Origin: Acidimicrobiia bacterium | GTDB taxonomy: Bacteria > Actinomycetota > Acidimicrobiia > Spongiisociales > UBA11373 | DNA: 64,000 nucleotides | Reading direction: 5' to 3' | NCBI GenBank assembly: GCA_030584185.1 | Contig: CP129495.1 | Span: 1,657,469 to 1,721,468, forward strand | Shown here: positions 24,399-33,115 of the stretch, one piece after another | Numbering within the stretch: position 1 is the first letter of the stretch | How the letters are laid out: every line of letters starts with the position of its first letter | Position numbers and translations under genes: made by a program | Notes under the pieces: generated by a model | The model's database searches: none | What the model was told of the DNA's origin: nothing | Seen by the model: only the letters and a program-made list of their open reading frames with translations

Positions 24399-24481
24399 GG
24401 GGGGCTGCCCGAGCGGCCAAAGGGAGCAGACTGTAAATCTGCCGGCGTACGCCTACGGAGGTTCGAATCCTTCGCCCCCCA
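24399..24481 (+). tRNA. tRNA-Tyr (GTA)
   Basis: An 83-nt class II tRNA with a long variable arm. The acceptor strands GGGGGGC and GCCCCCC pair fully; the anticodon GTA is at 24433-24435 within CTGTAAA; the T-arm is GGAGG-TTCGAAT-CCTTC. The discriminator A is at 24481 and CCA is not encoded (CCC follows). A TATCCT hexamer at 24382-24387 may be its -10 element. Its last 22 nt are the seed of the tandem array that follows. Confidence 0.96.
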
Positions 24482-25310
24482 CCCACGGCCCCGCTCCGCT
24501 CGGTCCGATCCCTGATCGGGATCGGACCTCGTCACCAGGGTTGTCGTCTGGTCTCTTCCAGGCGTATCGGACCGTGGTCGCCGTCGGGAGTCGATCCCGA
24601 CGACTCGCCTAGACCCATAGAAGACGGTTCGAATCCTTCGCCCCCCACCCACGGCCCCGCTCCGCTCGGTCCGATCCCTGATCGGGATCGGACCTCGTCA
24701 CCAGGGTTGTCGTCTGGTCTCTTCCAGGCGTATCGGACCGTGGTCGCCGTCGGGAGTCGATCCCGACGACTCGCCTAGACCCATAGAAGACGGTTCGAAT
24801 CCTTCGCCCCCCACCCACGGCCCCGCTCCGCTCGGTCCGATCCCTGATCGGGATCGGACCTCGTCACCAGGGTTGTCGTCTGGTCTCTTCCAGGCGTATC
24901 GGACCGTGGTCGCCGTCGGGAGTCGATCCCGACGACTCGCCTAGACCCATAGAAGACGGTTCGAATCCTTCGCCCCCCACCCACGGCCCCGCTCCGCTCG
25001 GTCCGATCCCTGATCGGGATCGGACCTCGTCACCAGGGTTGTCGTCTGGTCTCTTCCAGGCGTATCGGACCGTGGTCGCCGTCGGGAGTCGATCCCGACG
25101 ACTCGCCTAGACCCATAGAAGACGGTTCGAATCCTTCGCCCCCCACCCACGGCCCCGCTCCGCTCGGTCCGATCCCTGATCGGGATCGGACCTCGTCACC
25201 AGGGTTGTCGTCTGGTCTCTTCCAGGCGTATCGGACCGTGGTCGCCGTTGGGAGTCGATCCCGACGACTCGCCTAGACCATAGAAGACGGTTCGAATCCT
25301 TTGCCCCCCA
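24460..25310 (+). repeat. Tandem array of five 166-bp units built on the tRNA-Tyr 3' end
   Basis: Starting inside tRNA-Tyr, units begin at 24460, 24626, 24792, 24958 and 25124, and a terminal 22-nt copy occupies 25289-25310. Each unit is the last 22 nt of the tRNA (GGTTCGAATCC through GCCCCCCA) plus a 144-nt spacer. Units 1-4 appear identical; unit 5 is 165 bp, with GCCGTTGGG for GCCGTCGGG and a missing C in GACCCATAG. The last tRNA copy has one C-to-T change. Spacers contain strong inverted repeats (11-bp GGTCCGATCCC/GGGATCGGACC; 7-bp GTCGGGA/TCCCGAC). The array ends at a hairpin terminator, so it is probably co-transcribed with the tRNA and may yield small RNAs. No plausible protein is encoded. 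Confidence 0.95.
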
Positions 25311-25332
25311 CGCGGTTTCGCGTGCCGTCATC

Positions 25333-25366
25333 GATTCGCCGCCTTCCTGGCGGCGAATCTCGTTTC
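25333..25366 (+). terminator. Terminator closing the tRNA-Tyr/repeat transcript
   Basis: GATTCGCCGCC-TTCCT-GGCGGCGAATC forms a perfect 11-bp stem followed by TCGTTTCC, a short T-rich stretch. A smaller CACGCG-GTTT-CGCGTG hairpin (25309-25324) lies just before it, directly at the end of the last tRNA-derived copy. Confidence 0.72.
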
Positions 25367-25380
25367 CAGCCTTCGCGTGT

Positions 25381-25446
25381 TGCCCCCTTCTGCCCTTCGG
25401 GCCGCCTCCCCCTGCGGGGGAGGGAATGGCGCCAGACCTGTGTCGC
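25381..25446 (-). repeat. Dispersed GC-rich hairpin repeat, inverted copy
   Basis: On the minus strand this reads GCGACA...ATTCCCTCCCCC-gca-GGGGGAGG...GCCCGAAGGGC, matching the two direct copies at 32930-33069. It lies in the gap between the repeat array and tRNA-Thr. It is REP-like: non-coding, palindromic, intergenic. Confidence 0.65.
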
Positions 25447-31711: not shown

Positions 31712-32467
31712 ATGCCAAGACCCGAGAAGGTCCAGGCGGTCGCCGACATCAAGGAACGCCTCGAAGGGGCGCGTGCCGTGTTCGTCGCCGAGTACTCCGG
31801 CCTCTCCGTCAAGGAGCAGCAGGAACTCCGCCGCGGGCTGCGCGCCGTGGCCGGTGAGTTCAAGGTCTACAAGATGACCCTGGCTCGGCGGGCCGCCACC
31901 GAGGCCGGCAGGGATGGCCTGCTCGAACTGCTGGTCGGGCCTTCGGGCTTGACCTTTGCCGACGACGCCGCCTCTGCCGCCAAGGTGCTGCGCGACTTTG
32001 CCAAGGCCCACGAGCGGCTGGTGATCAAGGGTGCCCTGCTGGGCACCGAGGTGCTGCCACCGGAGAAGGTCGCCGAGATGGCGGATCTGGAGCCCCGCGA
32101 GGTCCTCCTGGCGAAGGTGGCCGGAGTGTTCCAGGCACCGATGGCGAGGATGGCCGGCCTCCTGGCTGCCTTGCCCCGGAACCTGGCAACCGTCATCCAG
32201 CAGCTGATCGACAAGTCCCCGGAGGCGCCGGCCACCGAGGCCGCAGCCACCACAGACGAGGCGCCGGCCACCGAGGCCGCAGCCACCACAGACGAGGCGC
32301 CGGCCACCGAGGCCGTAGCCACCACAGACGAGGCGCCGGCCACCGAGGCCGTAGCCACCACAGACGAGGCGCCGGCCACCGAGGCCGTAGCCACCACAGA
32401 CGAGGCGCCGGCCACCGAGGCCGTCGCCAACGATGACGAGACGGCCGACCCGGCCGAGGAGGAATAG
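31712..32467 (+). CDS. rplJ: 50S ribosomal protein L10 with repetitive acidic tail
   Basis: A 251-residue L10; the normal family length is about 165-180. Residues 1-170 are a standard L10 ([31 protein letters not shown]), including the helix that anchors L7/L12 dimers. From about 171 the protein continues as six near-identical 12-residue repeats ([12 protein letters not shown]) and ends [11 protein letters not shown]. The tail follows the L7/L12-binding helix, so it would project from the stalk base. It overlaps no gene and is 2 nt from rplL. Confidence 0.95.
32222..32434 (+). repeat. 36-bp tandem repeats inside rplJ
   Basis: Six units of 36 bp start near 32222, 32258, 32294, 32330, 32366 and 32402. 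They are almost identical; the main variation is GCAG versus GTAG, giving Ala or Val. The period is a multiple of three, so copy-number change keeps the frame. Confidence 0.93.
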
Positions 32468-32906: not shown

Positions 32907-32929
32907 CTGCGTTGCCGAGGGAGAAGGAC

Positions 32930-33069
32930 GCGACACGGCGTGTGTCGCGTTCGTTCCCCCGTAGGGGGAGGTGGCCCGGAGGGCCGGAGGGGACGAGCCG
33001 CGACAAGGCGTGTGTCGCATTCCCTCCCCCGACGGGGGAGGTTGCCCGGAGGGCCGGAGGGGGCGAGCC
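32930..33069 (+). repeat. Two direct copies of a 70-bp hairpin repeat in the rplL-rpoB gap
   Basis: Copies start at 32930 and 33000 (period 70), and a degenerate third begins at 33070. Each has three small inverted repeats in order: GCGACAC/GTGTCGC, CCCCC/GGGGG, and GCCC-gga-GGGC. Related copies occur at 25381-25446 (inverted) and 55917-55952. The 448-nt gap contains no gene; beyond the repeats it holds the rpoB promoter and leader. Confidence 0.8.
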
Positions 33070-33115
33070 GCGACAGCGCCCTGTCAGGGTCTGCCACCCG
33101 CAGGGCCGTCCTTCC

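Follow-up and report, generated by a model that had tools for sequence, protein, structure and literature searches.

A tandem array of short gene-less units behind tRNA-Tyr in an Acidimicrobiia genome, with relatives behind many other tRNA genes

The tRNA-Tyr locus and its array

The window (the whole stretch of DNA that was analysed, 64,000 nucleotides) belongs to the genome of an Acidimicrobiia bacterium, assembled as one 2.21-Mb contig, and carries a tRNA-Tyr(GTA) gene at 24399-24481, which is followed directly by a C and by a tandem array. The sequence-only reading of this locus had stated that the 3' end of the tRNA recurs at 166-bp intervals, with 165 bp to the last copy, and the same six positions were found here: copies start at 24460 (within the tRNA), 24626, 24792, 24958, 25124 and 25289. 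Tandem-repeat detection in the window delimits the array at 24460-25311 (period 166, 99% matches, score 1683). The features of the locus are arranged as follows:

24399..24481, + strand: tRNA-Tyr(GTA), whose 3' 22 nt (24460-24481) form the repeated tail (ARAGORN, Rfam RF00005)
24482..24647, + strand: unit 1, a 144-nt spacer and a tRNA-Tyr tail copy at 24626-24647 (covariance model R1, 146.0 bits)
24502..24528 (first copy; every 166 bp), + strand: hairpin GGTCCGATCCC-TGATC-GGGATCGGACC near the left end of each unit
24617..24625 (first copy), + strand: conserved right border ATAGAAGAC before GGTTCGA, common to Lys units; AAGAC is common to Ala units
24648..24813, + strand: unit 2, spacer and tail copy at 24792-24813 (repeat alignment, covariance model)
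24814..24979, + strand: unit 3, spacer and tail copy at 24958-24979 (repeat alignment, covariance model)
24980..25145, + strand: unit 4, spacer and tail copy at 25124-25145 (repeat alignment, covariance model)
25146..25310, + strand: unit 5, the most diverged, a 143-nt spacer and a tail copy at 25289-25310 with one mismatch; its flank matches the empty site of genome G008
25333..25359, + strand: 11-bp hairpin GATTCGCCGCC-TTCCT-GGCGGCGAATC of the native tRNA-Tyr locus, with a homologous hairpin in array-free G008

Units 1-4 are mutually identical, so that the 144-nt spacer is indeed the same in these four copies, but unit 5 carries three differences: one base is missing, one is substituted in its 143-nt spacer, and one is substituted in the terminal tail (CCTTTG for CCTTCG). 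This last tail ends at the discriminator base (A at 25310), as had been observed before. The terminator described after the array is matched in part: the 11-bp hairpin is present at 25333-25359, whereas the scan found hairpins but no T-rich intrinsic terminator meeting its criteria within the array or just 3' of it. The identity of units 1-4 implies recent amplification, whether by repeated integration or by unequal recombination. The array is not a product of chance, nor is it obviously an assembly artefact, because it lies in a single contig, its units are not all alike, and units of this kind are also found at other tRNAs and in genomes assembled independently; simple assembly expansion, like chance, was rejected in view of the dispersed, diverged copies and the other assemblies. 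The number of copies given here is that of the assembly, taken from the sequence alone.

Six relatives carry no array at this locus, where their gene order is tRNA-Tyr, tRNA-Thr, tRNA-Met, tuf. Moreover, the sequence 3' of the last Tyr tail aligns with the array-free locus of G008, in which the hairpin after tRNA-Tyr is homologous to that at 25333-25359. The array-free relatives and this homology indicate that the array was inserted between tRNA-Tyr and its native terminator; it pushed the native hairpin downstream, and the slightly decayed tail of unit 5 is read as the displaced original 3' end of tRNA-Tyr.

Three side observations may be added. In relative G001 (L066), a 1.1-kb segment with a Fic-type ORF and no second tail copy lies between tRNA-Tyr and tRNA-Thr. 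Elsewhere in the window, at 32222-32429, the rplJ ORF for ribosomal protein L10 closes with nearly six 36-bp in-frame repeats, which give the protein an unusual repetitive C terminus with many A, T, E and D residues. A dispersed, REP-like, GC-rich palindromic repeat (about TTCGGGCC-CCTCCCCCTGCGGGGGAGG) is found at 25383-25440 and 32929-33075, again behind tRNA-Ala(CGC) (L030), and as a partial copy after the tRNA-Lys array (L011).

Related units at other tRNA genes

A search of the genome with a single unit returned homologous units elsewhere. Two 168-bp units, each ending in a tRNA-Lys tail, lie downstream of tRNA-Lys(TTT), and the GGTCCGATCCC-TGATC-GGGATCGGACC hairpin shows one compensatory change in them. 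Near tRNA-Ala(GGC), Ala-type units occur together with one unit of the Tyr/Lys type and are now split by a 19-kb island, while at tRNA-Pro(GGG) four 130-bp units (L035, 980-1575, minus strand) have a longer tail copy of 30 nt, and their spacer shows no relationship to that of the Tyr units. A covariance search had been proposed as a check of the locus; the model built from this genome's units recovered ten Tyr/Lys/Ala-type copies in the genome, and its weak match in another genus (26.6 bits) lies exactly behind tRNA-Lys(CTT) and ends in a tRNA-Lys(CTT) tail. In two genomes of that genus, one of them the genome with this weak match, Tyr tails are combined with different spacers.

DNA search and a border-pattern search of 395 genomes together yielded at least about 34 unit loci in 14 genomes from two families of the order, a collection that is not exhaustive and comes largely from MAGs. 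The hosts comprise at least 12 isotypes (Tyr, Lys, Ala, Pro, Ser, SeC, Leu, Gly, Val, Thr, Arg and Ile) as well as tmRNA, and a possible further unit was seen in another order (G034, L287). Units are 100-213 bp long, with a mode at 145-170 bp, and several relatives' contigs end at units. It is very probable that all of these form a family of inserted tRNA-3'-end units. The family is large and apparently undescribed; in the open-access literature, no description of such units was found.

The anatomy of the units is consistent: after a tRNA tail and, frequently, a terminator-like hairpin come about 100 bp, a border and a tail copy. At the approximately 34 loci, this terminal copy reproduces the 3' end of the unit's own host, nearly always exactly. 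The copy extends from the GG before TTC on the T-loop side of the T arm (about G52/G53), where the match to the tRNA stops in most loci, to the discriminator and C74. Since the base at position 57 also follows the host, the boundary of the tail lies at or before this position. At some loci the duplication also takes in the native trailer, which extends the copy by 27-49 nt.

In contrast to the tail, the border on the spacer side is independent of the host: most genomes have GCGGAGAA, one genus has GGGCGCATNA, and the present genome has AAGAC. The border motif has about 80 matches in the 395 genomes, against roughly 15 for the reversed pattern, and these are concentrated in families f1 and f2. 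At approximately 23 of the 27 CGGAGAA-type sites in these two families, a matching tail is located 90-320 bp upstream, and contig ends truncate most of the remaining sites. Two looser motifs, one around TGCCYGCGRGC and the other GGCC, lie upstream of the border, and the spacers change almost completely between genera. By eye, no terminal inverted repeats and no conserved left end were seen in the units, the right border having no inverted partner at the left. The units have no room for genes, and a conserved reading frame is unlikely given that their lengths are variable and mostly not divisible by three.

Origin of the units

The array had been taken for a single Tyr-specific locus encoding a small RNA like rtT of E. 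coli. On such a reading, a read-through tRNA transcript would be processed at the tails, which would free RNAs of about 144 nt that act as decoys or regulators. The layout is that of E. coli tyrT/tyrV-rttR, a single unit folds better than its shuffles (z -3.3), and the one conserved hairpin has a compensatory change. However, there is no match to Rfam RtT (cmscan at the gathering threshold gave only four tRNAs in the window), RNAalifold returned no consensus structure for 25 unit 3' ends (a zero-energy consensus), and the covariation term of the Tyr/Lys alignment, 0.44, is not favourable. The near-complete turnover of spacers between genera, the terminator-like hairpin directly after the tRNA and the lack of a unit at most tRNAs of the same genome also speak against it. 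As judged from these comparisons, a tRNA-coupled small RNA is not supported and appears quite improbable. A Tyr-specific RNA is ruled out as the main reading because related units number in the dozens across two families of the order and follow tRNAs of many isotypes as well as tmRNA. The earlier interpretation as a whole is partly supported; an integrative element, which it had named as the opposing possibility, fits better, even though none of the units has an integrase linked to it.

The best explanation, to which we assign a probability of about 0.5, is that the Tyr array is a tandem of miniature gene-less integrative elements targeted to tRNA and tmRNA genes ("naked attP") and integrated by a T-loop recombinase supplied in trans. 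The unit would essentially be a bare attachment site composed of the 3' part of the host tRNA (T arm to C74), about 100 bp and the border. A T-loop-specific recombinase, such as an Ms6-like tyrosine integrase, acting in trans now or formerly, would insert circles of the unit into tRNA genes; the incoming unit's own tail would restore the tRNA, the original tail would shift downstream, and tandem copies could come from successive integrations or from unequal recombination of identical tails. The attP core of mycobacteriophage Ms6 comprises 26 bp, AGGGGTTCGAATCCCCTTAGCTCCAC, and integration requires identical cores (PMC1762012); the copied stretch corresponds to this core minus its first few bases. 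In published work, tDNA integration is recognised by a tRNA accompanied by a displaced fragment, and an attP is about 250 bp long (PMC4383910). The units are read as miniature integrative elements moved in trans because their tails have the extent of T-loop att sites and they are about the size of an attP, with nothing more. The anatomy, the precise insertion at the Tyr locus, the spread of the family, the host-matched tails and the conserved border are shown by the sequences; the recombinase and a route by which units obtain a new host's tail are inferred. Several findings stand against this explanation: the tails match their own hosts, whereas classical integration between isotypes would yield chimeric tRNAs; the trailer duplication of 27-49 nt exceeds an att core; the units at tRNA-Pro differ in spacer and have a longer tail; and no integrase beside the units and no convincing phage donor came to light, as described next.

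No integrase was found in or beside any unit, and no PF00589 match lies beside the Tyr, Lys or Ala units. The genome has five tyrosine-recombinase matches, at least two of them with ordinary islands at tRNA-Met (initiator-like) and tRNA-Asn. The tail copies of these islands reach back to the anticodon arm (L148, L107), which indicates that their integrases use another site than the units and rules them out as unit mobilisers. Two successive tail copies are present at the initiator-like tRNA-Met site. The 19-kb island (G000 C1:577.7-597.0 kb; L023/L010/L063), which encodes a type I restriction system besides a large serine recombinase, is located within one tail of the unit array at tRNA-Ala. 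Its attL and attR have GTCCTG and GGCCCACC in common, and its joined flanks recreate a tail sequence also present at C1:1431813, which supports a unit array interrupted by an island. Serine recombinases have been reported as not known to target tRNA genes (PMC4383910), and this one, as a candidate maker of the units, was rejected, as it seems to have used the tail as its target instead. Further candidates were also set aside. In G004, the 8.2-kb stretch from tRNA-Leu to a stray tail contains ordinary genes, and genomes with high tRNA-tail counts elsewhere in the class show kb-scale spacing, as ordinary islands do, mostly at another tRNA. Among the viral contigs searched with the borders, no convincing phage donor was found: matches lie in coding genes or phage tRNAs, with the exception of a phage attP with an adjacent integrase, in which CGGAGAA precedes GGTTCGAATCC, a match compatible with chance.

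Two other origins have been weighed against elements moved in trans. In one, only the spacer would have been inserted, by transposition or by a Cas1/casposase-like enzyme, with a target-site duplication of about 24 bp giving rise to the tRNA tail. Casposons insert at tRNA 3' ends and produce duplications of 14-15 bp, and such an insertion would account both for the match of each tail to its host and for spacers that different tRNAs of one genome have in common; the problem of how a unit gains a new host's tail is the strongest argument in its favour. The units, however, lack a conserved left end or terminal inverted repeats, the trailer is duplicated along with the tail in several loci, which argues against this origin, and no candidate enzyme was found (Cas1 lay outside the search), so that spacer insertion is considered unlikely. 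An equally low probability is given to the possibility that the units are relics, now immobile: ends of ordinary tRNA islands that were left after internal deletion, multiplied by unequal crossing-over and made uniform by gene conversion. This genome does have ordinary islands at tRNA-Met, Asn and Ala, which fits such a history, as do the identical first four Tyr units, which recent amplification would give, but independent deletions would hardly produce a uniform size (mode 145-170 bp) and one border at a dozen isotypes in two families.

If the units are mobile, they would be the smallest tRNA-targeted integrative elements known to us, and it must be asked how an element acquires the right tRNA tail when its host gene changes. 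A standard island finder is blind to them since it rejects anything under 2 kb or without an integrase, which may be why they have been overlooked. They may also serve as alternative landing sites, as the serine-recombinase island inside the tail of the tRNA-Ala array suggests. More tentatively, they might represent a class of mobile DNA that consists of an attachment site alone, captures the 3' end of any tRNA or tmRNA gene that it enters and so spreads through much of the tRNA complement while leaving it intact; the puzzling E. coli tyrT repeats, for which the units offer a general explanation, could then be a relative in kind.

Comparison with known systems

The closest parallel in layout is E. 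coli tyrT/tyrV with rttR/rtT (Rfam RtT), where tandem units with a tRNA 3' end also lie behind tRNA-Tyr. The analogy drawn by the sequence-only reading holds in MG1655, in which the tRNA-Tyr 3' end recurs every 178 bp, with three copies behind tyrV; another tail copy was seen in the tyrT-tyrV spacer (1286200-1288200, L303). In contrast to the stretch from G52/G53 to C74 copied here, the E. coli copies cover A58-A76 (19 nt with CCA). Moreover, the spacer is unrelated, the units studied here are associated with many isotypes and tmRNA, and they have no Rfam match.

T-loop islands of tRNA and tmRNA genes, such as those using the Ms6 attP or listed by Islander, likewise leave an intact tRNA and a displaced 3' fragment in the same orientation (about 34 loci for the units), and tmRNA is a target in both cases. 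Compared with the published Ms6 core, the boundaries of the tail copies place a putative att core of the units likewise in the T-loop, ending at the discriminator and C74. Unlike tDNA islands, the units measure 100-213 bp and carry neither integrase nor cargo; by design, Islander drops candidates under 2 kb or without an integrase (PMC4383910), and both grounds apply to the units.

Bacterial MITEs and REP-type repeats resemble the units in being short, gene-less, multicopy, hairpin-bearing and presumably moved in trans. The units differ in that they are located at tRNA and tmRNA 3' ends, show no terminal inverted repeats and carry a host-specific 24-nt tail. CRISPR arrays and casposons share with them the repeat-spacer-repeat geometry beside a fixed leader and, for casposons, the targeting of tRNA 3' ends; in the units, however, the spacers are alike rather than diverse (identical in units 1-4), and the repeat is the tRNA tail.
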